64,000 nucleotides of DNA from Liolophura sinensis. Its lineage: Eukaryota > Mollusca > Polyplacophora > Chitonida > Chitonidae. The number at the start of each line of letters is the position of its first letter. Position 1 is the stretch's first letter. Shown here piece by piece: positions 4,688 to 51,903 of this stretch. Both the position numbers and the translations under genes were made by a program. A model generated the notes under the pieces. It saw only the letters and a program-made list of their open reading frames with translations, did no database searches and was not told the DNA's origin. The stretch is from positions 32,705,979 through 32,769,978 of the forward strand of contig NC_088302.1 of the NCBI RefSeq assembly GCF_032854445.1, given 5' to 3'.

Positions 4688-4881
4688 ACGAACATTATCT
4701 GAACGATTTCTGGACGAACATTATCTGAACGATTTCTATACGAACATTATCTGAACGATTTCTGGACGAACATTATCTGAACGATTTCTGTACGAACATT
4801 ATCTGAACGATTTCTGGACGAACATTATCTGAATGATTACTGGACGAACATTATCTGAACAATTTCTGGACGAACATTATC
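4688..4881 (+). repeat. 26 bp minisatellite, about 7.5 copies
   Basis: Units start with ACGAACATTATCTGAACGAT at 4688, 4714, 4740, 4766, 4792, 4818 and 4844, with a partial unit at 4870. Differences are confined to a few positions, mainly the last two bases of the unit. Confidence 0.95.
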
Positions 4882-12700: not shown

Positions 12701-15700
12701 CCAGAAATCTCTTACCAATGCAATGGCTGTGAGTTCAAGTCCAGCTCATGCTGGCTTCCTCTTCGGCCGTACGTGGGAAGGTCTGGCAGCAACCTGCAGA
12801 TGGTCGTGGGTTTCCCCCGGGCTCTGCCCGGTTTCCTCCCACCATAATGCTGGCAGCCGTCGTATAAGTGAAAAATTCTTGAGTACAGTGTAAAACACCA
12901 ATCAAATAAATAAATAAGTAAATTAAAAGATGTTCTCAACACATCCACCCAAACTCCACAACTTTGACACCACGCTACCTCCCTGAAACTCCACTTGTAA
13001 TATATATGACATCTGCTCTGAATAAGTCCACAGATTATTATTAAAATATGAAGTGTTCTTAACGGGAAATAGTGGAATATACTCAAACATTATATATTCA
13101 ATTGGCGTTTTAAAATATTGTCATATATTCCATATTGAAAAGAAATTCAATTAAACTATGGCAGTTGGCTTTATGTGTGTAGGAAACCTAGCACAAACCA
13201 CCAAAACCAGTTGTTCTTGGAGTAGGTTGCACTGTACATTGTATGTTTAATTATATTTATTATACATTTGAAGCCAAATTTCATACTGAAGTCCAGACCT
13301 TACCAGTCATGTAGATACTCAGTTCGTATAGCCTTCTCTTTAACTATTGCAGGATGATGAACTGATTGTGTATGACACTGAGGTGATCTATGTGAACTGC
13401 ACCCCAGACAATGTTGAATCAGAAACCAATGTCCGCTCAGATAACGAAACGTTTTATCAGAGCCCAGAATCAGACAGCCATCTGGATGATTCCGTGGACA
13501 ACGCTTATGAGCTTCTGGCCAGTTTCAAGCTCAATGATGCGGAAACAATGTTCCTGAACGTGTTCAAAGACCTGGATGAAACTTCTGAGGAAGGCAAACA
13601 GTCAACAGTGAAGGTGATGATGGGTCTGGCTGAGATCTGCTTACGGAAAAGTCGTATGACACGTGGGAATCCAATGGAGAGTCAGTGGCTGCAAGCGCAC
13701 AACATTGCACTTCTGCAGTATGCTGTTCAGCTGTGCAGTGAAGCACTGCAGAGTGAGGGCAACAACCAAATGATCACCTGGTATCAAGAGCAGCACAATT
13801 GTGCGCTTAAAAAAATGAAACCTGCAGAGGAGAACTTTGTTAAGTCCATGTACACATACATCCAGAGTGACAAAGCTTCTCTTCAACGTCAGATGTTCTT
13901 TTCACTCTCTGCACCCACAACGCCAACGGGAGAATTCAACTTTCCCCTGAGCAGCACCCCACTTCAGCATGTCTTCCCTGGGGTACAGTTCCAGAGGAAT
14001 GCCTCTGTGGAACACTTGTCATCGGAAAATAATGCTTTTCCTGGGGGACTCCAATGGATGGTGAAATTTCAAGAATACTGCCAAGACCGTCTCCGAAGTA
14101 AGGATTCAGCGCGAATCGTGGAGCAGCTGTTTTCATTGAACTCTGAAATTTCTGACCTACTGAATAAGGATCCGGAGGATTGTGATAAAGACAAGGCTAC
14201 TGCACAATCCGAAACAAAACCTGATGAAGGATGTAATGATATAACTCAAGAATTAGACGTGCCATCTGAACAGCAGTCTGATGAAGGATGCAAGGATAAT
14301 GTTCAGGAATCAGGAATCAGAGATGAGGCTGTAGAGCTTCAGACAGTGTCTCCTCTACATGCCTGTACAGTGAGCCTCACCCTAGCCAAACTGATAAGTA
14401 AACTTGCAGAAAAACTGGTCGGAGAAGGAGAATGTGTGAAAGGGGAAGCCCTGTATGAACAGAGCAGAGAAATTCTAGAGTTCATTCAGGATGGAACAAA
14501 AGGTATGGTGGTGCTGTATGCCCAGACTGTCAAGAAACTAGGGATGCTGAAGATTAAACTAGGCGATATTAGCTCTGGCATCCAACTGCTACAAACAGCC
14601 ATTCGCTCATACAGGGAAGTGGGCGATGAGGCCTCTAACGGAGACATTGCCTTGGCGCTAGTAGAAATTGGGGACAGTCATACCATTGAGAAATGGGATT
14701 CGGAGTCCATATTTGATCATGTTATTGATGTCATACGAGAGGCTTTTGACAAGGAATCTCTTGCTGATGTCCCACTTACGTCTAAGAGCAACAATGACCC
14801 AGAGGAGAGCAAGTGCAATTCACCAAGCAAAGAGATGAGCCAGAGCTACTGTTCGAGCACTCAGGAAGCCATATGGTGTTATGAGGAGGCCATTGACATC
14901 CTTGAGAATCTGCCATTGTGCGATGTTCTGAACAGTACCGTGTATGCCCGTGCCATCACCAGGCTTGGGGATTCGCACTTCATACAACAGGAGTACAATG
15001 AAGCTCTGTTCTGCTACGAGAAAGCTCAGACACTCTTCCGTGTGACAAGCGGGAGGAGTGCCCTAATACAGCATGGTCACGTCCTCTGCATGCTTGGCAC
15101 TACCAGTTTCATGTTACATCTCTACCCAAAAGCTGCCATGGTTTTCGAGTGTGCATACCGTATGCTGAAGCACGCATTCAGGGGAGAGTACCCTTACAAA
15201 ATGGCCCTCCTTTTGTCTCTGCTGGGATTAGCCACTTACAAGCTCCAGCATTACCACAAGTGTATTTCATGGAGCTTCCGTGCCTATGAAATGTACATTG
15301 ATCTGTTTAAAGACAGCCTAACAAATCTGCCCAGACAGAAGCTCTGGATAGCCTGCCAGACTCTGTACATCCTGGGGAATTCGTACAACGTCCTGAATCT
15401 TCATGAGAAGGCCATCCACTACTTAACCCTTGGGAGATCCATCATGACTGTGGCCAGTAACACGGACAGGCGACAGTACATGCGGGTTCTACAAGTCCTG
15501 GGGGACTGCTACTTTGCGCAGTACGACTACAAGACAGCTCTCACGTTTTACAACGAGGCGCTGCAAGACTTTGAAGGAGAAGCCTTGCAGCTGATTCGCG
15601 TTCATCAGAACATCGCGGAGCTGAACCAGTCTTCGGATGACAAGGGTTTCCACAATCAACTACTGAGCAGATCAGCCGATGCTCACCTCCACATGCAGGA

Positions 15701-16550
15701 GTACAAGGATGCATTCGGGCTTCTTGCACAGGTCAGCAATATTCAGGACGTTTTAGAAGATGACATAAAGGGTGATCTGGTGACGACACTCCATCAACTA
15801 GGCAACATGCACTCTATGTCTGGGGATGCAGACCAGGCCATCCAGTCATTCAAGGACTGTGTGGAAATATACCAGGAGGTGCACGGGGATCTTGGGCCCG
15901 AGATGAGCATCATTCTGGGCAACCTGGCCACAATGTGCTACGTGAAGGCATGCACCAGCGAAGGCGCCGAAGAGGAGTTGGAGATGACCATAGCTGCAGA
16001 GCAGAACTTCCAGGATGCCATTGCCCTGGAGAATAATCTCAACGTTCTGGTGAAGTATTCCAGCTTTCTGTTCAGCCAGGGAAACTATGACGATGCTGTC
16101 ATGTATCTCCAAGACGCCTTAAAGCAAGCCCATGAAGAGCAGTTGATTGGTTACAGTGGGCTAGAGAAGGTCACTCTGCCAGAAGTTCTCCAGGATGAGG
16201 TGGATTATCAGTCCGAGGTCAGCTTCCCAGCTACACCTCTCATCCACTACCTCCTGATGGTATCACACAAGGCACTGGGTGAAATGAAAGTGGCAGAGGA
16301 CCATCTCCTCCTCCTGATGAAGGAGGTCATGAAGGGAGACAACCCTGTCATGCACTCTCTGGTAGGCTATGCTCTCATGGACATGGGGATGTTCAAGGAT
16401 GCGGCAGAGTTCTTTGCTATTGCGTTTCACATGAAAGAGGATTATCATTTGGCCACAGACAATTATTGTACATGTTTAGGGATCATGGTACTACACACTC
16501 TACAGAAATCTGTGGAAAACATCTACTTCAGCAGAAACAAAGAGCAGTAG
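9691..16550 (+). CDS. large tetratricopeptide-repeat protein, whole gene span (3 coding exons)
   Basis: Joining 9691-9784, 12168-12400 and 13353-16550 gives 3525 nt, encoding 1174 residues. Both introns are GT-AG with strong GTAAGT donors and T-rich acceptors, and the phases match (1, then 0). Residues 1-110 form a non-repeat N-terminus. From about residue 450 to 1150 there are many degenerate 34-residue helix-turn-helix units of TPR type, such as LGDSHFIQQEYNEALFCYEK and LGDCYFAQYDYKTALTFYNE. No signal peptide or membrane segment is evident, so it is likely a cytosolic scaffold that binds partner proteins, as TPR arrays do. I do not recognise the family and assign no specific function. An isolated TPR array of this kind also fits ciliary or trafficking adaptors, but that is speculation. 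Confidence 0.85.
10970..11490 (+). repeat. dispersed repeat family W, copy 1 (internally duplicated)
   Basis: Within this block 'ttgagctcaggg-tgcac-catgta' occurs twice (near 11012 and 11215), with a more diverged third version near 11330, so it is a roughly 200 bp internal repeat. The third version also matches 45560-45880: 'attgacctgaagtttaacat' against 'attgacctgaagttttacat', then 'aagcacaatgaca'. It lies in intron 1 of the TPR gene. The class is unknown. Confidence 0.55.
11496..11752 (+). mobile_element. tRNA-derived SINE (SINE-A), near full length
   Basis: The 5' head carries an A-box-like TGGCTCAGTCATTTAGCG and a B-box-like GAGTTCAAGTCC, followed by the conserved 3' domain with 'tttcccccgggctctgcccg' and 'gaaatattcttgagtacgg', ending in 'aaaacaccaatcaaat'. 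Intronic in the TPR gene. The short open frames over it are not genes. It resembles tRNA SINEs with a conserved 3' domain known from molluscs. The exact family name is not verified. Confidence 0.85.
12168..12400 (+). CDS. TPR gene coding exon 2
   Basis: Begins after TTTTTGCAG and ends before GTAAGT. It completes the split codon from exon 1 (GAC, Asp) and adds 77 more codons with no stop. Contains PPRRDYDWSVHSKLP and SSLWRTRKTFVP. Basic and aromatic, with no TPR in this part. Confidence 0.8.
12653..12922 (+). mobile_element. SINE-A copy with 14 bp target-site duplication
   Basis: Full-length copy from the GGGGCCTCCG head to an (AAATA)n tail. TTAAAAGATGTTCT stands immediately before it (12639-12652) and after it (12923-12936), an exact 14 bp target-site duplication, so the element limits are firm. 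It sits in intron 2 of the TPR gene. Confidence 0.92.
13353..16550 (+). CDS. TPR gene coding exon 3 (long terminal exon)
   Basis: Begins after TTTAACTATTGCAG and runs 1065 codons to TAG at 16548. It holds all recognisable TPR-like units. A low-complexity linker around 14150-14330 (D, E, Q and S rich, with two copies of a DEGC-D motif) separates an N-terminal helical part from the C-terminal repeats. A short serine- and asparagine-rich insert near 14780-14850 splits the repeat array. A 3.2 kb uninterrupted exon is unusual among the short exons of the other genes here. Confidence 0.88.
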   Translation, partial: DDELIVYDTEVIYVNCTPDNVESETNVRSDNETFYQSPESDSHLDDSVDNAYELLASFKLNDAETMFLNVFKDLDETSEEGKQSTVKVMMGLAEICLRKSRMTRGNPMESQWLQAHNIALLQYAVQLCSEALQSEGNNQMITWYQEQHNCALKKMKPAEENFVKSMYTYIQSDKASLQRQMFFSLSAPTTPTGEFNFPLSSTPLQHVFPGVQFQRNASVEHLSSENNAFPGGLQWMVKFQEYCQDRLRSKDSARIVEQLFSLNSEISDLLNKDPEDCDKDKATAQSETKPDEGCNDITQELDVPSEQQSDEGCKDNVQESGIRDEAVELQTVSPLHACTVSLTLAKLISKLAEKLVGEGECVKGEALYEQSREILEFIQDGTKGMVVLYAQTVKKLGMLKIKLGDISSGIQLLQTAIRSYREVGDEASNGDIALALVEIGDSHTIEKWDSESIFDHVIDVIREAFDKESLADVPLTSKSNNDPEESKCNSPSKEMSQSYCSSTQEAIWCYEEAIDILENLPLCDVLNSTVYARAITRLGDSHFIQQEYNEALFCYEKAQTLFRVTSGRSALIQHGHVLCMLGTTSFMLHLYPKAAMVFECAYRMLKHAFRGEYPYKMALLLSLLGLATYKLQHYHKCISWSFRAYEMYIDLFKDSLTNLPRQKLWIACQTLYILGNSYNVLNLHEKAIHYLTLGRSIMTVASNTDRRQYMRVLQVLGDCYFAQYDYKTALTFYNEALQDFEGEALQLIRVHQNIAELNQSSDDKGFHNQLLSRSADAHLHMQEYKDAFGLLAQVSNIQDVLEDDIKGDLVTTLHQLGNMHSMSGDADQAIQSFKDCVEIYQEVHGDLGPEMSIILGNLATMCYVKACTSEGAEEELEMTIAAEQNFQDAIALENNLNVLVKYSSFLFSQGNYDDAVMYLQDALKQAHEEQLIGYSGLEKVTLPEVLQDEVDYQSEVSFPATPLIHYLLMVSHKALGEMKVAEDHLLLLMKEVMKGDNPVMHSLVGYALMDMGMFKDAAEFFAIAFHMKEDYHLATDNYCTCLGIMVLHTLQKSVENIYFSRNKEQ

Positions 16551-20440: not shown

Positions 20441-20449
20441 CCACTTGGC

Positions 20450-20756
20450 CATGACCCACTGTTTGCAAGGTTGTTAACAAAGTTAGAGTTGCATGAAGAT
20501 GTGTAACACCCCATGACCAACTGTTTGCAAGGTTGTTAACAGAGTTGAGTTGCATGAAGATGTGTAACACCCCATGACCGACTGTTTGCAAGGTTGTTAA
20601 CAGAGTTGAGTTGCATGAAGATGTGTAATATCCCATGACCCACTGTTTGCAAGGTTGTTAACAGAGTTGAGTTGCACGAAGATGTGTAATATTCCATGAC
20701 CCACTGTTTGCAAGGTTGTTAACAGAGCTGAGTTGCAGGAAGATGTGTAACACACC
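20450..20756 (+). repeat. 61 bp minisatellite, 5 copies
   Basis: Units begin CATGACC-ACTGTTTGCAA and contain 'gttaacagagttgagttgca'. Starts are near 20450, 20512, 20573, 20634 and 20695. Because 61 is not a multiple of three, the reading frame shifts each unit. The minus-strand 93-codon open frame is a by-product. Confidence 0.95.
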
Positions 20757-32802: not shown

Positions 32803-32918
32803 ATGATGTCCGAAAAGCGTCGAAGTGATTGTGTCGGATTGCCCACAGGATGGAAGCGCGAAGAAGTTGTGCGAAAATCTGGCCTCTCTGCTGGAAAAAC
32901 AGACGTGTATTACTTTAG
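32803..32918 (+). CDS. MBD2/3: MBD2/3 coding exon 1
   Basis: Starts at ATG (context CAAAATGATG; the second ATG at 32806 is also possible) and encodes 38 codons plus two bases: GLPTGWKREEVVRKSGLSAG and KTDVYYF, the first half of the MBD fold. The open frame extends upstream to 32719, but without an earlier ATG. Donor TTTAG|GTTTGT. Confidence 0.92.
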
Positions 32919-35900: not shown

Positions 35901-38900
35901 TCCATACTTCTCCAATATGGCCGAAAAGTGGGTCACAGGTGGGTAAAGTTTGATACTCCAGCTGGTAGCCCAAGTGATTTGGTAAATGAAACTGTGTAGA
36001 AAGTTAACAGCTGTGACAGGAAGTTATCTCGCAGAAGGAAAAAACAGTTGTCAGAGGAGAAGAAAAATGATCTGTAGTGAGAACAGTAGTCCTCTAAGCG
36101 AAGCTTGGAAGCCCAACAAATAATTATTTTTTGAAAGTCTTCAGCGCTTGTTACTTCTGGCACTCTAGTATCATTTTTACATAAAACTGACTGATATTTA
36201 ACCTTAAATCATTCGTGAAAAGGAACTCTAAAAAAAGATTATGGGATGTGAAGAAGGTGACTTCCCTCCCCCCCTCCTCACAAAAATTAATTTGTTTTTG
36301 ATACATATTTTCTGTTGTTTAGCCCTCTACTTTAAGCATACTTTCCACCAGTTGTCAAAAATTTGAGGAAACAATGTCAGTGATGCACTTGAGAGCTTAG
36401 CCTGACCAGGTTAAGCACTCCGCATGCATGACATGCTGGCTTTTCCCAAACACAATTGTTTTCACAGCTGTCACAGTTGATGCCACAAGTGCAGGTTACT
36501 TAATTTCCAGATGCACAACTAGAGTCTTATGATAACTCTACTTAAAATCCACTTTTACACCCTGGGAAGAAATCTGGGAATTTTTTTGTTTCTTCATATA
36601 TTCAGTTAGGGAGACATTCTAAACCGCATATATTAAGAAAGTTTCATGTATCCTTTAAGTGGAAAACATTTTCAGCATGGTGTTATACAGGAAATGGGTT
36701 AATTTAAGTAAGTTTATGATACAAAAGGATTGAAACTCATAGGGGTAAATCAAAGGAGCTTTATTTTAGCTGCAGGGGCCTCCATGGCCGAGGTGGTTAA
36801 CCTGCCAGCACGATGCAATGATCCATGAGCCTCTCGCAGATGCAGTTGTGGTGAATTCAAGTCCAGCGCATGCTGGCTTCCTCTCCGACCATACGTGGAA
36901 AGGTCTGCAGCAACATGCAGATGGTCAGGGGTTTCTTTATTCCATCTCCCACCATTAATAAGTGAAATATTCTTGAGTATGGGTAAAACACTAACCAAAT
37001 AGATAAATAAATAAATTTTCGCTGCATATATTTTCTTCAGAAGCAGTCTTCCTTGGAAAAACAATCAAGTGAGGCCCTTTCAACATTTTCTAAAAATATT
37101 AAAACTAGGCAGCTTTGCCTAACCTTATATATTTTTCTTTTTCTCAGTCCTGATGGCAAGAAGATCCGAAGCAAACCTCAGTTGTCACGTTATCTGGGAG
37201 AACTGTTGGACTTGAGCGCCTTTGATTTCCGATCTGGGAAGACAATTCACAGCGCTCTGCGCAAAAGTAAGCGGCACAGAGGAACTGTATATGACCACGC
37301 CAGAGGTTTGTCTTACGACTCAGTTTGCATTTTTGGGGTGAGCATGGTGGAAAAGGGTGTTTGGGGGTGATGCGTGTACTAATACTGCTGGGATCATGGA
37401 CACTTGTGCATATTCATTTAACAAAGTCTTGCCAGATTTCAGCTTCTAGTGTAGTTCTAGGGAATGCCCAGTGCTTTGATAAGGGGCTTTGCTTCCAAAT
37501 GGTAATGGCTAACAAATGCTAACCAACCCTTGTGTTCTCAGCGACCTAACTTGCAGAATTCAGTTAATTTTCAGTTAGCAATCACACTTATTTACAGATT
37601 GAGAAAATTTTATTGAGATTTTCATTAAAAAAAAAAGAGATGGGAGATAATAAGTGTATTCAACATTTATGCTGTTTGCATTGTTTGAAGTACACAAATA
37701 CATTTTAACTCTTGGTACAGTAAAATTCTTTTATCCCAGGCTAGAGATGCATGGTTGTACTGTCTGGTGTGAGTTGCCTCCCTTACATTGACTCTTCACC
37801 ATGGTTTATATAGATAGGTGTCTGTAAATCAGGTGACCAGAAATAATGCTTGCGAACATAAATGAAGAAATGAAATTATAAAGCATGAGAGCCTTGCTAT
37901 TTCCTCCTCCCTACCTTTGTTTCTAGGCAGAAAAACCTCCAATTTTTCAGGTAATTTTTGTTTGCCTTCATTTAAACACTTAAGCTCTTAAGCTGTATTC
38001 TGATTATTTTGTTTCACATGTTGCAGATTTTCTGAATTTCTGTTTGTTTTGATATTAAGATCACGTCCACATTTTTTTACTGAATTCTTTCTGTTTCTGC
38101 TTTCCCTTCGTCGATTTGACAAGTCACAAACAACAGATCTGTTCAAATTTTTTGGTGTTTATTAATATGAAACATATGATAGAAACAGAAAACAAATGAT
38201 AGAAACGGAAAACAAATGATAGAAAAAGAAAACATATGATAGAAACAGAAAGCAAATGCAGATGAATAAAGGTAGTGTTTTGCAATTTATTTTGATCTTG
38301 TATATGTACTTTTGGTTCACCTGAATTTGGAACTAGCCTATAAGCTGTTGGTACCCCCAATTCTGCAACCTTTCAGTGCAGCTTATGTGCATTTTTCATT
38401 TGATTTTGGAAACAAAACTACATTGGTTGGATTGTCCAGTTTCTGGGCTTCACTAAAAGTGTAATTTTATCTTTCGTCACAGAATAATGCCTTCAGAATA
38501 TGCTTGAATTAACACCTTGCAAACATGCTTAAAGAATGAAGAAATAAAGTATACATATAATTTCTTTCTTGGATTTGCTTGAACAAAACTTCTTATACAA
38601 AAGTGCAAATTTTCATTCAAGAAGCTCCATGTACCATGTATTTATTTCAAGACCGGAAACAGTTTAAAGTGTTTTCTATTCCCATATGCCCTATGAGCAA
38701 TTTTGAGTAATACATTGCGCAATATTTCTACATTTAATTCATGAAGCTGGTGTATGTCGTTTGTAAGGTCTGAAAGCAGCCTGCTAAAGATTGTGGGTTT
38801 TCTTCCACCATAATGCTGGCAGCTGTTGTAGAAGTGAAATATTCTTGACAACGAAAAAAAAAAAAAGAAAATCATTAAGCCAGTGGTAAATACATGTAAT

Positions 38901-40730: not shown

Positions 40731-43700
40731 TATGTTTTTTTTTTATTATCATCTATGAAACCTTTAGGTTCTAAATGTAGCCCAGTCATGCTTATCACTC
40801 CAGTTTTGTTTCTCGTTACATTTTTCATTCATTTATTTTTTGTTCTGTTTTGCTTCCCTTTGTCTAGTTGACAAGCTGTTACACTGAACATTCTTGAATA
40901 TTAGCAAAGACTTAACCAATGGCATTGCTGTGTGTGATCTTGCAGGGATTTGTCACGACACTACACTGGCTCTGCCCATACGTCAGACTGCCTCTATCTT
41001 CAAACAGCCTGTAACTGTGGTGAGAACGCGCCCCGAGGGGAAGACTAAGTCAGACCTCAAACAGGGGTCTCAGGAGAATCAACCCAGACAGGTGGGCAGA
41101 GGTCATGTCAAGGTCGAAAACCACTCTCAGCCTGACCTTGATTAGAACAATTGAATCTTGCGTTAGACCACACCAGTTTATATTTTTGTTTTACCGGCAG
41201 AAATGACTCTCTTTCTCTTTGGCTGAAAGAGGTATAAAAAAAAAAAAATAACTGACAAATATCTTCTTTTTGAGAAATGTGGACTTTCCCAGAAATTTTT
41301 TTTGTCTTAAATTCATGTTTATTTGATCAATAAATATTTAAAAAACAGGAAAATCAAAAAAAATGTGTGTCAATCAAAATAAAAATGTAGGTTTTTAGGT
41401 TTTTTATATTCAAGTTTTAGATATTTTAGTGTCAGATTGCCCATAAAACACGAAATAAGATTGGTGTCACCTTAGCAGATGTCAAAATGACAAATTTATT
41501 AAAAAAATACCTTTTATCTGGACAAAGTGCAGAACCTTAAAAAGTTTTTGTGGAAATATGTCACTTTATTTCTTGTGTTCATACTGAAAATTGCTTTCAA
41601 GCCATTGATTTGTCATAATGATCTGTCTTGCACCATTGATTTTATATTTATAAACTAAGGCTGAATGTTGGGAAGCTAATGTGAAATATGAAAATATTCA
41701 TAATCGCGGGTAGGTGGTCCTGGATGGACGAGGTCTTGATGAAAAGTGTACTTGTTGGCATGTTTCAGCTGTTCTGGGAGAAGCGCTTACAAGGTTTGCG
41801 GGCCAGTGATAACACAGGAGAATCTCTGCTCTCCCTTCAACTTCCTAAATCCATTCATGGTGAGTCTACACTTGAGATGTGCTTGTATGTCAGTTGTTGT
41901 GTGTATGAGTCAGTGATAACACAGGAGAATCTCTGCTCTCACTGCAACTTCCTAAATCCATTCATGGTGAGTCTATACTTGAGTTGTGCTTCTATGTCAG
42001 TTATCAAGTGCATGGGTCAGTGATAACTCAGAAGAATCTCTGCTCTCACTGCAACTTCCTAAATCCATTCATGGTGAGTCTACACTTGAGTTGTGCTTGT
42101 ATGTCAGTTGTTGAGTGCATGAGTCAGTGATAACACAGGAGAATCTCTGCTCTCACTGCAACTTCCTAAATCCATTCATGGTGAGTCTATACTCAAGTTG
42201 TGCTTGTATGTCAGTTATCAAGTGCATGAGTCAGTGATAACACAGGAGAATCTCTGCTCTCACTGCAACTTCCTAAATCCATTCATGGTGAGTCTACACT
42301 TGAGTTGTGCTTGTATGTCAGTTGTTGAGTGCATGAGTCAGTGATAACACAGGAGAATCTCTGCTCTCACTGCAACTTCCTAAATCCATTCATGGTGAGT
42401 CTATACTCAAGTTGTGCTTGTATGTCAGTTATCAAGTGCATGGGTCAGTGATAACTCAGAAGAATCTCTGCTCTCACTGCAACTTCCTAAATCCATTCAT
42501 GGTGAGTCTATACTTGAGTTGTGCTTCTATGTCAGTTATCAAGTGCATGGGTCAGTGATAACTCAGAAGAATCTCTGCTCTCACTGCAACTTCCTAAATC
42601 CATTCATGGTGAGTCTACACTTGAGTTGTGCTTGTATGTCAGTTGTTGAGTGCATGAGTCAGTGATAACACAGGAGAATCTCTGCTCTCACTGCAACTTC
42701 CTAAATCCATTCATGGTGAGTCTATACTCAAGTTGTGCTTGTATGTCAGTTATCAAGTGCATGAGTCAGTGATAACACAGGAGAATCTCTGCTCTCACTG
42801 CAACTTCCTAAATCCATTCATGGTGAGTCTACACTTGAGTTGTGCTTGTATGTCAGTTGTTGAGTGCATGAGTCAGTGATAACACAGGAGAATCTCTGCT
42901 CTCACTGCAACTTCCTAAATCCATTCATGGTGAGTCTATACTCAAGTTGTGCTTGTATGTCAGTTATCAAGTGCATGGGTCAGTGATAACTCAGAAGAAT
43001 CTCTGCTCTCACTGCAACTTCCTAAATCCATTCATGGTGAGTCTACACTTGAGTTGTGCTTGTATGTCAGTTGTTGAGTGCATGAGTCAGTGATAACACA
43101 GGAGAATCTCTGCTCTCACTGCAACTTCCTAAATCCATTCATGGTGAGTCTATACTCAAGTTGTGCTTGTATGTCAGTTATCAAGTGCATGAGTCAGTGA
43201 TAACACAGGAGAATCTCTGCTCTCACTGCAACTTCCTAAATCCATTCATGGTGAGTCTACACTTGAGTTGTGCTTGTATGTCAGTTGTTGAGTGCATGAG
43301 TCAGTGATAACACAGGAGAATCTCTGCTCTCACTGCAACTTCCTAAATCCATTCATGGTGAGTCTATACTCAAGTTGTGCTTGTATGTCAGTTATCAAGT
43401 GCATGGGTCAGTGATAACTCAGAAGAATCTCTGCTCTCACTGCAACTTCCTAAATCCATTCATGGTGAGTCTACACTTGAGTTGTGCTTGTATGTCAGTT
43501 GTTGAGTGCATGAGTCAGTGATAACACAGGAGAATCTCTGCTCTCACTGCAACTTCCTAAATCCATTCATGGTGAGTCTATACTCAAGTTGTGCTTGTAT
43601 GTCAGTTATCAAGTGCATGAGTCAGTGATAACACAGGAGAATCTCTGCTCTCACTATGAGTAATCCCTACAGCCATGTTCATGAGTAAGGACAGATGCTT

Positions 43701-46259
43701 TTTAATGGCCTCAGCATCGACCCATTGAAGATTGGATTGGAAGTACATTGTACAGAGGTGTTCAAAGTAATCTCATGGAACAAGACAGGGCTGGGGGCCT
43801 CCGTGGCTCAGTCGGTTAAAGCGCTAGCGCAGCGTAATGACCCAGGAGTCGCTCACCAATGCGGTCGCTGTGAGTTCAAGTCCAGCTCATGCTGGCGGCC
43901 GTACGTGAGAAGGCCTGCCAGCAACCTGCGGATGGTTGTGGGTTTCCCCCGGGCTCTGCCCGGTTTCCACCCACCATAATGCTGGCCGCCGTCGTATAAG
44001 TGAAATATTCTTGAGTACGGCGTAAAACACCAATCAAAAAAAAAAAAAAAAAAAAAAAAAGACAGGGCTGTGGTAGCATACATATTTACAGCCCTACAGA
44101 GCTTGTCCACAGCTGATTATTCATGCTTGATCGTCTGCATTATTATAGGAAGTATGCAAGAATTGGTATGGAAACTTTCAGTACCTCAGTCTTTTCGCAT
44201 ATGAAGAGCATTTATTCACATTTTTAATTTGACTGTGAGACATGTACTGTGGAACTTACAGTACATGTATTGTCTGGGTGGTTTGTTGTCTGTGTTTTTG
44301 TTACTTTTGTGAGACAGAGATTTCTAGCCTTGATAATTCTCATACGATAACTTGAAATTAATGATAATGTACAGTGTTTCCCATATCCATCAACTAGTCA
44401 GTCACACTGTCACCAATTTTGTGTTGATGTTGTACAGGTATTGGGCCAGAGCTGACACCGGATAGTGTCTTACAGAGCATCTCGGCAGCCCTTCATCTCA
44501 ACAGTCAGCCTGTCACTGGCCAAAACGCTTCCAAATCTTCAATCAACAAAAATCCAGGTGTCCATATTGATGCGAACCAGCCACACATACAGGTAAGGCA
44601 AATAGCTACGTGTACATGCATCGGGGAGCAAGCTTTGTTGGAGGGGCTAAGGTGCTTGCCGCTTCAACACTATGTTACAAGAAATGTGGGCTCAATACCA
44701 GTCTCTGACGGCAAATTTTGAAGATTTCCATGCTTACCCGAATTCCTCAACTCCCTGTGTTTAATTTGATTTTGGAGACAAAATTGATTGGATTGGCCAG
44801 GGTCAGGGCTTTAGAAAAAGTATAATTTCATCAGTCTACACAGGATAATAACTTCAGAATATGCTTTAATAAACGCCTTGCCAACACACGGAAACACGCA
44901 ATGCTTTGTTCTCAGGACCTTGATGGTAACAATTGGTCAATGGAGTCTCCCTTGTATAGTCTTACATAAAGTTTACTGGAGACAATTTGTTTACCACCAG
45001 CATAATTTGTCAGGGTTAATGATTCACTCGGGGGCATACGGTTTTCTCTGCTTATACTATGCTGGTCGCCATGGTATAAGTAAAAAATTTGTCAGTACGG
45101 TGTTAAACAATGGTCGAAATGAAAGTGAACACAAGAAAAGAAAAATTGTGTTTTATTTTAACAGGTACAGCCAGCATTACTAGTATCATTGTGATGAATG
45201 CCAGTATGTTTGACATCATAAAGAAGTGCACATTCCGATGAAGATCCATTAACACATAGGTTTTGTGTCACTTTACAAAATTACTTTGATGGCTTTTAAC
45301 TCACTTGTGCAAAGTACAGGAGTAGATTATGTGATGTCCCAGGCCATACGCCTTACAGCACTCTCCCTGGCTTTACATCGCTGCCACCACTAGACAAGCT
45401 TGACATTTGGAGCCTGTGAGACACACGTAGGCTTGATTAGACTTAGCCTCACCACTTATGTCCTGGTCAAACTATTTAATCAGCATTGATCAATAAAATT
45501 GTTTCAGAGTTTGGTTAAAAACATGTTGCACAAATTTTAGATAAAGAGAATGCATGAATATACAGTATTATCAGAAGCAAAATTACAAAATTCATAATTT
45601 CATGCATTAGAATCAATGTTACTGTAAATGTTAGGGGTGGTCTCTCAAAAAAGTACAGCATGTATTGACCTGAAGTTTTACATGCATATGAAGCACAATG
45701 ACATGGATTGGGTGGGGTGGGAGGTGGGTGGTGGGGGGGTCGAGTTGGTATTCCATTGCTGGTGCACTGTGTGCATATTAATGACCATTAATTAGCAAAT
45801 ACACATCTGCAGTACCTCATGTATAAAGCTGAAGTTTTGCATTCCTATAGGTGAGCTGTTTGCTAACCTTAGCAGTTTTTTTAATGTTACTGGTAGAATG
45901 ATTTACTTACAATAATTTAGTTATCTTCTTTTTCACAGTCACATTCCTTACTTGTATATTTGAGGTGTTATAAGCATATCCCCAAAATAACTATGTTTGG
46001 GATAAAATCTGACAGAATTAATCAAGATACTTGCCGAAGGGTATTTGCCTTTAATGTGTACTTCACAGTGGCTATATTTCATTTCCTCAGATGTGCATTT
46101 TATAAGCACAAGTCTCCCTTAACCCTCAGTAATCACTTTTTACCTTATTTTGTGCCCCCAAAGGCGACGGTGGTGTCTGAGGAGGATGTGAGACAACAGG
46201 AGAGACTCGTGACTGATGCCAGAAAGAGGCTGCAGGATGCTATCAAAGGATTCGCTTAG
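32803..46259 (+). CDS. MBD2/3: methyl-CpG-binding domain protein 2/3, whole gene span (6 coding exons)
   Basis: Exons 32803-32918, 37148-37305, 40946-41091, 41769-41859, 44438-44592 and 46164-46259 join to 762 nt, 253 residues. All introns are GT-AG with consistent phases (2, 1, 0, 1, 0). Order of parts: MBD domain (about residues 8-75), the p55/MTA-binding MBDa-type region with LPIRQTASIFKQPVT and LFWEKRLQGL, the conserved C-terminal region (IGPELTPDSVLQSISAALH, NPGVHID), and a short coiled coil (EEDVRQQERLVTDARKRL) that in vertebrates binds GATAD2/p66. It should act in the nucleus as the NuRD subunit linking methylated DNA to deacetylation and remodelling. Positions matching mammalian MBD3 H30 and F34 are K32 and Y36, as in MBD2, and the two arginine fingers (R24, R46) are kept, so methyl-CpG binding is expected. 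The MBD2-type glycine-arginine N-terminal extension is absent. Confidence 0.95.
35080..35950. repeat. dispersed repeat family Z, copy 2
   Basis: Shares with 7190-7740 the order 'gaccaacagcgagcttcca', 'ggcagttctggagaagaa', 'ccaatatggccg'. It lacks the terminal (TAA)n and hairpin of copy 1. Confidence 0.5.
36774..37016 (+). mobile_element. SINE-A, near full length, diverged
   Basis: Head 'ggggcctccatggccgaggt', B-box-like 'gaattcaagtcc', 3' end 'gtgaaatattcttgagtatg' and an AAATAAATAAAT tail. The 'cccccgggctctgcccgg' part of the middle domain is deleted. Ends about 130 bp before exon 2. Confidence 0.85.
37148..37305 (+). CDS. MBD2/3: MBD2/3 coding exon 2
   Basis: Acceptor CTTTTTCTCAG, donor CCAGAG|GTTTGT. 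Encodes SPDGKKIRSKPQLSRYLGEL, LDLSAFDFRSGK and a basic tail, completing the MBD domain. R46 (in KKIRSK) is the second DNA-contacting arginine. Confidence 0.95.
38168..38258 (+). repeat. 20 bp minisatellite, about 4.5 copies
   Basis: Units of the type AACAAATGATAGAAACAGAA start at 38171, 38191, 38211, 38231 and 38251, with CATATG or CAAATG variants. Confidence 0.9.
38360..38545 (+). repeat. dispersed repeat family X, copy 2
   Basis: Contains 'tttgattttggaaacaaaac', 'gtgtaatttta', 'acagaataatgccttcagaa' and 'tgcttgaatt', matching 4510-4660 closely. Confidence 0.65.
38772..38864 (+). mobile_element. SINE-A 3' fragment
   Basis: 'gcagcctgctaaagattgtg' through 'ccaccataatgctggcagct' to 'gaaatattcttgac' and an A-run. 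Strongly truncated at the 5' end. Confidence 0.65.
39369..39505 (-). CDS. exon-like segment on the minus strand inside MBD2/3 intron 2, unidentified
   Basis: Minus-strand acceptor AACTCCTCTCTAG, donor ACATG|GTGAGT. Open for 45 codons: TGLAQLIEPTLNVLVNRSAI, CRERQVRKENKFRELLNDYP, GYSNM. The frame remains open about eight codons further upstream. The residue mix (amphipathic, K/E/R-rich) is convincingly protein-like, but no partner exon was found. It could be an exon of a nested gene or a decayed gene fragment. A GC-rich stretch near 39010-39110, also followed by a GTGAGG donor on the minus strand, might be a downstream exon. Confidence 0.35.
40671..40733 (+). repeat. (TA)n microsatellite
   Basis: About 27 uninterrupted TA units (40671-40724) followed by CATATATATG. 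Open frames encoding alternating Tyr-Ile here are artefacts. Confidence 0.97.
40946..41091 (+). CDS. MBD2/3: MBD2/3 coding exon 3
   Basis: Acceptor TGATCTTGCAG, donor AGACAG|GTGGGC. Encodes ICHDTTLALPIRQTASIFKQ, PVTVVRTRPEGKTKSDLKQ and on to QPRQ. The LP-RQTASIFKQPVT signature is diagnostic for the MBD2/MBD3 family. Confidence 0.95.
41769..41859 (+). CDS. MBD2/3: MBD2/3 coding exon 4 (source of the tandem array)
   Basis: Acceptor GCATGTTTCAG, donor TTCATG|GTGAGT. The 30 codons plus one base read LFWEKRLQGLRASDNTGESL, then LSLQLPKSIH, matching the LFWEKKLSGL region of vertebrate MBD2/3. The last 56 bases of this exon, its donor and about 50 bases of intron form the unit that is tandemly repeated downstream, so the true donor is the first of 17 near-identical ones. 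Confidence 0.93.
41804..43655 (+). repeat. 107 bp tandem array derived from MBD2/3 exon 4 and its splice donor (17.3 copies)
   Basis: GTGAGT donors occur at 41860 and then every 107 bases to 43572, 17 in all, with no length change. A partial 18th unit ends at 43655. The first unit includes the genuine end of exon 4. Units fall into types by their intronic part: A ('acacttgag', 'gttgttgagtgcatgag'), B ('tatactcaag', 'ttatcaagtgcatgag') and C ('catgggtcagtgataactca'). From unit 3 on the order is ABAC, C', ABAC, ABAC, AB, a 428 bp higher-order repeat. Near-identity of units suggests recent expansion or homogenisation. Confidence 0.97.
43774..44105 (+). repeat. dispersed hairpin-containing repeat, copy 2, interrupted by a SINE
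   Basis: 'catggaacaagacagggctg' is cut by the SINE at 43794-44058 and continues after the duplicated target as 'tggtagcatacat', 'acagccctacagagct'. It matches the uninterrupted copy at 29815-29885. Confidence 0.65.
43794..44058 (+). mobile_element. SINE-A with target-site duplication and poly-A tail
   Basis: Near-complete copy: A-box-like TGGCTCAGTCGGTTAAAGCG, B-box-like GAGTTCAAGTCC, conserved 3' domain, and a run of more than 20 A's. AAGACAGGGCTG stands on both sides (43782-43793 and 44059-44070). The long pure A tail and intact duplication suggest a relatively young insertion. A few bases before the 'ggccgtacgt' word are missing. Confidence 0.93.
44438..44592 (+). CDS. MBD2/3: MBD2/3 coding exon 5
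   Basis: Acceptor GATGTTGTACAG, donor ATACAG|GTAAGG. Encodes IGPELTPDSVLQSISAALHL, NSQPVTGQNASKSSINK and NPGVHIDANQPHIQ. It aligns with the MBD2/3 segment in which ALH and PITGQ are conserved. Confidence 0.95.
44735..44895 (+). repeat. dispersed repeat family X, copy 3
   Basis: 'tttgattttggagacaaaat', 'gattggattggcca', 'ataacttcagaatatgcttt' and 'cgccttgcc', in the same order as at 4510 and 38390. Confidence 0.6.
45030..45118 (+). mobile_element. very diverged SINE-A 3' remnant
   Basis: 'tatgctggtcgccatggtat' followed by 'aagtaaaaaatttgtcagta' and 'cggtgttaaacaatgg' parallels the SINE 3' end. No tail. Confidence 0.4.
45560..45880 (+). repeat. dispersed repeat family W, copy 2
   Basis: 'attagaatcaatgtt', 'aggggtggtctctcaa', 'tattgacctgaagttttaca' and 'gaagcacaatgaca' match 11160-11400. 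It includes the G-rich insertion at 45709-45740. Confidence 0.55.
45709..45740 (+). other. G-rich quadruplex-type tract in MBD2/3 intron 5
   Basis: Five runs of three or more G's (3, 4, 3, 3 and 7) in 32 bases on the coding strand, with loops of 1 to 4 bases. It lies about 425 bases upstream of exon 6. Confidence 0.5.
46164..46259 (+). CDS. MBD2/3: MBD2/3 coding exon 6 (terminal)
   Basis: Acceptor GTGCCCCCAAAG; 31 codons to TAG: ATVVSEEDVRQQERLVTDAR, then KRLQDAIKGFA. This is the short coiled coil that in vertebrate MBD2 pairs with GATAD2A/p66-alpha. There is no acidic tail as in mammalian MBD3. A GTAAGT just after the stop (46276) could open a 3'UTR intron. Confidence 0.92.
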   Translation, partial: ATVVSEEDVRQQERLVTDARKRLQDAIKGFA

Positions 46260-51633: not shown

Positions 51634-51903
51634 TGTTATCCTGAATTTTCCTGTTATTCAGAGGTTTTCTGTTTATAATTCTGTTACCAGGAAGATTTCT
51701 CTTATTCCAAGGTTTTGTGTTATCCCAAGGTTTTCTGTTTATAATTCTGTTACCTGGAAGGTTTCTGTTGTCCTAAGGTTTTGTGTTATTCTGAGATTTT
51801 CTGTTATCCCAAGGTTTTCTGTTTATAGTCCTGTTACCTGGAAGGTTTCTGTTATTCCAAGGTTTTCTGTAATCCCAAGGTTTTTGATTATTCTGAGGGT
51901 TTT
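51634..51903 (+). repeat. degenerate short tandem repeat (TTCTGTTAT-CCAAGG-type)
   Basis: About 16-18 bp units of the kind 'ccaaggttttctgtt', with longer units carrying 'tataattctgttac(c)tgga', repeat across the block. The 120-codon open frame (51545-51907), with its recurring RFSVIP and YNSVT words, is produced by this repeat. Confidence 0.85.

Follow-up and report, generated by a model that had tools for sequence, protein, structure and literature searches.

A 17-unit tandem array spanning the exon 4 splice donor of an MBD2/3 gene in the chiton Liolophura sinensis

The MBD2/3 gene of Liolophura sinensis, contained in the 64,000-nt stretch of contig NC_088302.1 analysed here (the window), carries a tandem array in which the end of coding exon 4, its splice donor and the beginning of intron 4 are present in 17 full copies. 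This array is most likely a recent, probably length-variable minisatellite. In the reading that we prefer, to which we assign a probability of roughly 0.8, a local tandem duplication would have captured the exon 4 end, the donor and intron 4 as far as its base 51, and later unequal exchange or slippage, latest in four- and five-unit blocks, would have expanded this to 17 full units plus a partial 18th. Since the duplicated segment runs from within the exon into the intron, the first copy would still have its upstream acceptor, reading frame and original donor and so stay functional, with all further copies being intronic. Splicing from this first donor to 44438 would make the normal protein and would dominate in cells, and use of any later donor would introduce a premature stop ahead of a later junction and expose the transcript to nonsense-mediated decay. 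A minisatellite whose first copy keeps acceptor, frame and donor could be tolerated, and the array may be close to neutral.

Results

An MBD2/3 gene with the array at the end of exon 4

The first-pass annotation of this DNA had named the gene MBD2/3 and taken 44438 as the start of the next exon. Both are confirmed by a spliced model with the following coding exons, whose product is 100% identical to a public record:

32803–32918, + strand: coding exon 1, from the ATG
37148–37305, + strand: coding exon 2, with an internal alternative donor at 37267
40946–41091, + strand: coding exon 3
41769–41859, + strand: coding exon 4, 91 nt, of which the final 56 bases (41804–41859) are the exon part of array unit 1
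41860–41865, + strand: GTGAGT, the genuine donor of exon 4 (donor 1), from which splicing yields the sequence of the 253-aa record
44438–44592, + strand: coding exon 5, its acceptor after ACAG
46164–46259, + strand: coding exon 6, the last, with the stop

All five introns start with GT and end with AG. The product shows the MBD2/3 domain order of MBD, MBDa (p55-binding) and MBD_C (Pfam, E = 8.2e-22, 1.1e-24 and 3.6e-29), all three matches exceeding the curated cut-offs, and its residues 6–249 align with the MBD2 chain of PDB 7ao8, which we take to be human (E = 1.8e-78). At the protein level, the 253-aa donor-1 product is 100% identical over its full length to ‘methyl-CpG-binding domain protein 2-like isoform X2’ of Liolophura sinensis (P0001, a record representing two member sequences), which bears out the proposal that the genuine donor is the first of the 17. 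The isoform X3 record (P0002) lacks 13 residues at the end of exon 2 and has the same exon 4–exon 5 junction as isoform X2; no record named X1 was found among the best 120 of 1270 matches.

The alternative donor at 37267 inside exon 2 (AAA/GTAAGC) fits the isoform X3 record without the 13 aa. The same 13-aa difference occurs in protein pairs, picked by length, of five other molluscs (Sinanodonta, Gigantopelta, two Patella and Mytilus), which points to deep conservation of this alternative donor. Bearing on a possible second copy of the gene, the accessible portion of PMC12005716 reports that Liolophura sinensis went through a partial ancient genome duplication.

The array makes up 70% of the 2578-bp intron 4 and ends in a truncated unit:

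41804–43655, + strand: tandem array of 107-bp units, 17 of them full and an 18th reaching 33 bp, with donors at 41860 + 107k (k = 0 to 16)
43623–43661, + strand: truncated unit 18, 33 bp followed by ATGAGT, the 6-base ending shared by 12 of the 17 units

Tandem Repeats Finder described 41804–43655 with a period of 107, 17.3 copies, 93% matches, 0% indels and a score of 3228. Counted in register, the 17 full units differ from the consensus at 2–9 positions each. Every unit consists of 56 exon bases and 51 intron bases, the intron part opening with the donor, and CATG/GTGAGT is intact in 17/17 full units with the 107-bp spacing held throughout. Thus the extent, exact period and donor retention described at first pass were reproduced, and the ‘about 50’ intron bases given there are 51.

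The 27-mer AACTTCCTAAATCCATTCATGGTGAGT occurs 17 times in the window at 0 mismatches (0.00 expected from 100 shuffles), and it has no match within the window outside the array when up to 3 mismatches are allowed. Across the final 22 bases of the exon and the first 9 of the intron, all 17 units are identical. Elsewhere in the exon part, two synonymous changes (TCC CTT vs. TCA CTG) distinguish unit 1 from units 2–17, and two further positions vary among the latter, both protein-changing if translated. In unit 18, the ATGAGT unit ending follows directly on the 33 bp; since the two unit endings together occur at only about 5 per 10,000 positions in the rest of the window, this arrangement is suggestive, though only that, of a deletion that removed an internal piece including donor 18.

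Just 3' of the array, also in intron 4, lies a repeat that we label SINE-like (43796–44036), in which ARAGORN found no tRNA. It has 11 further blastn alignments in the window, the full-length ones including 11499, 12655 and 26374, at 82–88% identity.

Donor 1 alone encodes the full-length protein

Joining donor 1 to 44438 yields the full 253-aa protein. From the nth donor, exon 4 grows from 91 nt to 91 + 107(n − 1) nt, and each of donors 2–17 leads to a premature stop: donor 2 gives a 211-aa product, and donors 3–17 give fifteen identical 224-aa products that share the same stop. These premature stops precede the last exon junction by 137–1703 nt. As the usual rule for nonsense-mediated decay calls for a stop more than 50–55 nt ahead of that junction, transcripts from donors 2–17 would be expected to be destroyed by this pathway.

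A protein search with the array-derived tail (residues 170–224 of the 224-aa product) returned no database candidate sharing three words, in a collection of cluster representatives of limited length range and with decaying transcripts being of a kind that gene predictors may drop. The 211- and 224-aa products share about 170 residues with the isoform X2 record and should fall outside its 90% cluster. As possible acceptors for cassette mini-exons, each unit also contains 8 AGs with 33–60% pyrimidine upstream, a range that on this crude measure reaches into the lowest values of the gene's five genuine acceptors (53–93%); no new intron derived from the array is evident in the two public Liolophura sinensis proteins (isoforms X2 and X3).

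We then compared the donors as splice sites. With a vertebrate weight table applied to all 893 GT sites of the gene, the 17 array donors receive equal scores and tie at ranks 2–18, the exon 5 donor alone being ahead; the genuine donors of exons 1, 2 and 3 rank 126, 91 and 26, which shows how approximate the table is here. The calculated U1 duplex energy is −9.2 kcal/mol for each of the 17, and the same calculation gives stronger U1 binding, down to −13.0, at several other single sites in the gene. Predicted accessibility is lower at donor 1 than the mean of donors 2–17 at all three window settings (0.012 vs. 0.030, 0.009 vs. 0.012 and 0.002 vs. 0.004), so it indicates no structural preference for donor 1, and we reject an RNA structure that exposes donor 1 and hides donors 2–17. 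Very low accessibility was also predicted for four of the five other donors tested in the gene (those of exons 1, 2, 3 and 5), the alternative exon 2 donor being the exception (0.21–0.31), and 20–32% of other GT sites are predicted to be as inaccessible as donor 1.

The equal scores and U1 energies, the lower accessibility of donor 1 and the lower variation of the exon part considered below (P = 0.045) count against our preferred reading. The difference that remains between the donors is their position and order, and donor 1 would probably gain from its nearness to the acceptor, through exon definition, and from being transcribed first. The array therefore amounts to a natural experiment on splice-site choice, with 17 identical donors 107 bp apart that share an upstream exon and a downstream acceptor: the choice among them must depend largely on position and order.

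Donor-spanning repeats in other genes

A tandem repeat that spans a splice donor is a known kind of element, as in human ABCA7 and IFI6. The chiton array belongs to this kind: a coding exon's genuine donor lies in its first unit, and its further units carry intact donors. The first two bases of the human ABCA7 intron 18 VNTR are the canonical donor of exon 18, the unit is 25 bp, the smallest allele has 12 units and alleles reach 9,711 bp, according to the available sections of PMC5954066. The same sections describe splicing measured in RNA and a link of the VNTR to Alzheimer risk: use of the donor one unit on retains exactly one unit and shifts the frame to give a transcript with a premature termination codon (PTC), skipping of exon 19 rose with VNTR length, and unit retention was independent of length. 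Both repeats sit at the donor of a coding exon, and the next-unit donor causes a frameshift and a PTC in ABCA7 and would do so in the chiton; the ABCA7 unit, however, runs for 25 bp from the GT onward, whereas the chiton unit has 107 bp, including 56 coding bases. By analogy with ABCA7, donor leakage in the chiton array should be small, and the exon 19 skipping suggests that skipping of exon 5 would be worth checking.

The minisatellite of human IFI6 (6-16, G1P3), with a unit of 26 bp, likewise contains several splice donors. Two of its downstream units are used as donors, with three mRNA species resulting (Turri, Cuin and Porter 1995, as cited in the accessible part of PMC4526556), and its donors yield known isoforms, whereas the later chiton donors lead to PTCs only. 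In potato RdRp, a tandem duplication that straddled the 3' end of an intron gave rise to a new one (PMC4974935, in the portion available). It resembles the chiton array as a local tandem duplication over an intron–exon boundary that copied splice signals, but it is one duplication at the 3' end with a new intron, whereas the chiton array lies at the 5' end and has 17 full units and no evident new intron.

These human precedents temper the earlier description of a satellite that begins in a coding exon and carries a splice site as unusual. What does stand out is a unit as long as 107 bp with 56 coding bases in it, a donor present in 17 identical copies, the exactness of the higher-order blocks and the setting in an invertebrate chromatin gene. 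Among the matches listed in the open-licence literature, we found no earlier report of this array.

A role in poison splicing is improbable

The array could instead be a regulated poison-splicing device, in which later donors are used at a set rate, their PTC transcripts decay and array length tunes the dose of MBD2/3 and hence of NuRD. We regard this as improbable, although several observations agree with it. The 16 later donors are intact and score as well as donor 1, every one of them leads to a PTC, fifteen to an identical stop, and the exon part varies slightly less than the intron part. In ABCA7, retention of one unit via the next donor amounts to 2 ± 1% in brain, and PTC transcripts increase with cycloheximide (PMC5954066, in the sections available).

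The pattern of variation, however, does not single out the donors. Among units 2–17, 10 of 107 columns vary, and the absence of any change from the 9 donor columns is expected by chance (P about 0.40); we therefore reject donor conservation as a sign of selection. Variable columns are less frequent in the exon part than in the intron part (2/56 vs. 8/51, P = 0.045), and the longest invariant run has P = 0.02, or 0.135 once clustered changes are grouped as 7 events, so that the lower exon-part variation may be a weak hint of constraint that is not robust to grouping. Moreover, no predicted protein with the array tail was found in a search that PTC transcripts may escape, VNTR length had no effect on repeat-donor use in ABCA7 (PMC5954066, same sections), and exact block copies favour recency over long conservation. 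A working, copy-number-tunable element, in which 16 decoy donors set the dose of a NuRD gene that varies between individuals with array length, is more doubtful still.

The array probably grew in blocks and is unlikely to be misassembled

As an addition to the earlier description, we find a higher-order structure of four units (428 bp). Seven unit types can be told apart among the 17 units; they are arranged as A B C D E F G C D E F C D E F C D and define the following blocks:

42018–42445, + strand: block CDEF copy 1, units 3–6, 428 bp
42446–42552, + strand: unit 7 (type G), with two differences from unit 2
42553–42980, + strand: block CDEF copy 2, units 8–11, identical to copy 1
42981–43408, + strand: block CDEF copy 3, units 12–15, identical to copies 1 and 2
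43409–43622, + strand: partial block copy 4, CD, units 16–17

Within units 3–17, the four-unit block CDEF is thus present in three full copies and one half copy without a mismatch. The longest exact runs in the array are 700 bp at a lag of 428 and 585 bp at a lag of 535. Given the latter run and the two differences between units 7 and 2, units 2–6 and 7–11 look like the outcome of one five-unit duplication, in addition to four-unit duplications. The exact 428-bp copies make the amplification look recent, and the last rounds may indeed be so, or the array may have been kept uniform by conversion. Because the higher-order blocks are exact, variation in array length between chitons is plausible and would seem likely.

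Type D units (unit 4, 42125–42231) and type F units carry TTGA/TCAA variants at two places of the intron part, with the same letters in both types, that look like paired changes. When a type D unit is folded, these variants allow a short hairpin, TGAGT...ACTCA, over the donor, with no clear effect on predicted accessibility.

Exact 428-bp copies are also a sequence type on which assemblers can err, and the genome was assembled at 14X coverage with 1.24% heterozygosity (PMC11068029, in the portion available). Even so, an inflated copy number or a misassembled array is unlikely, and we give it very little weight. The hifiasm assembly, from which the window presumably comes, judging by the 100% protein match, used HiFi reads with a mean length of 8,347 bp (PMC11068029, same portion), so single reads can span an array of 1.85 kb, and units 1–7 hold seven different sequences. 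The published chiton genome was first named L. japonica and corrected to L. sinensis (PMC12441733).

Exon 4 as the source of the array

That the array was amplified from the gene's own exon, as first proposed, is supported by comparison with other animals. The repeated codons (18 codons, residues 153–170) can be aligned across 16 MBD2/3 rows, which were hand-chosen from the best 120 of 1270 matches and represent 15 animal species ranging from molluscs to a fish. Across these rows, D154, L165 and P166 are invariant, and there is one single-residue insertion (Haliotis). The codons also align in the MBD2 chain of PDB 7ao8. This alignment across animals marks the exon part as old coding sequence, so that the exon evidently predates and seeded the array. 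An unrelated dispersed satellite that adjoins or was captured by exon 4 is extremely improbable: PMC7492417, in the part available, reports short arrays of satellite-like type scattered over the genome of the Pacific oyster, but the 56 repeated bases here are MBD2/3 codons that align in other animals, and the array motif has no copy elsewhere in the window.

It is hardly more credible that the 16 extra sites serve as a sink or shield for U1 snRNP, through decoy binding, slower elongation or suppressed premature polyadenylation, although 17 U1-complementary sites, at −9.2 kcal/mol each, lie within 1.85 kb. Several single sites of the gene outdo them (down to −13.0), and intron 4 has 0 AATAAA/ATTAAA, vs. 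2–7 in each of the other four introns, and so offers little for U1 to suppress, an argument that concerns intron 4 itself and not its neighbours. On that count, we reject U1 protection against premature polyadenylation within intron 4. The effects on splicing fidelity and elongation and the U1 decoy role that the first-pass annotation had entertained are therefore unsupported: no tail protein was found in the database search, donor invariance matches chance and intron 4 lacks AATAAA/ATTAAA.

By a rough estimate, donor-spanning arrays are to be expected in this genome

A duplication that starts in an exon and ends in an intron has the harmless orientation, which shows why arrays can grow at donors. 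In the window, Tandem Repeats Finder reported two arrays with at least 5 copies of a unit of at least 50 bp; scaled to the genome of 609.5 Mb, this corresponds, as a rough estimate, to about 19,000 such arrays genome-wide. With 28,010 genes (genome size and gene number from the available portion of PMC11068029) and an assumed 8 or so introns per gene, the chance that a random 107-bp segment covers a donor would be about 4%, which gives several hundred such arrays prior to any selection, again as a rough estimate. By this reckoning, a donor-spanning array somewhere in the genome is to be expected.

Other features of the window

Further short tandem arrays were reported by Tandem Repeats Finder at 4688–4881 (26 bp × 7.5), 20449–20753 (61 bp × 5) and 51662–51884 (66/84 bp × 2.2). 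At 13344–16550, a 1068-aa open frame contains many TPR repeats (TPR_12, E = 2.2e-34).
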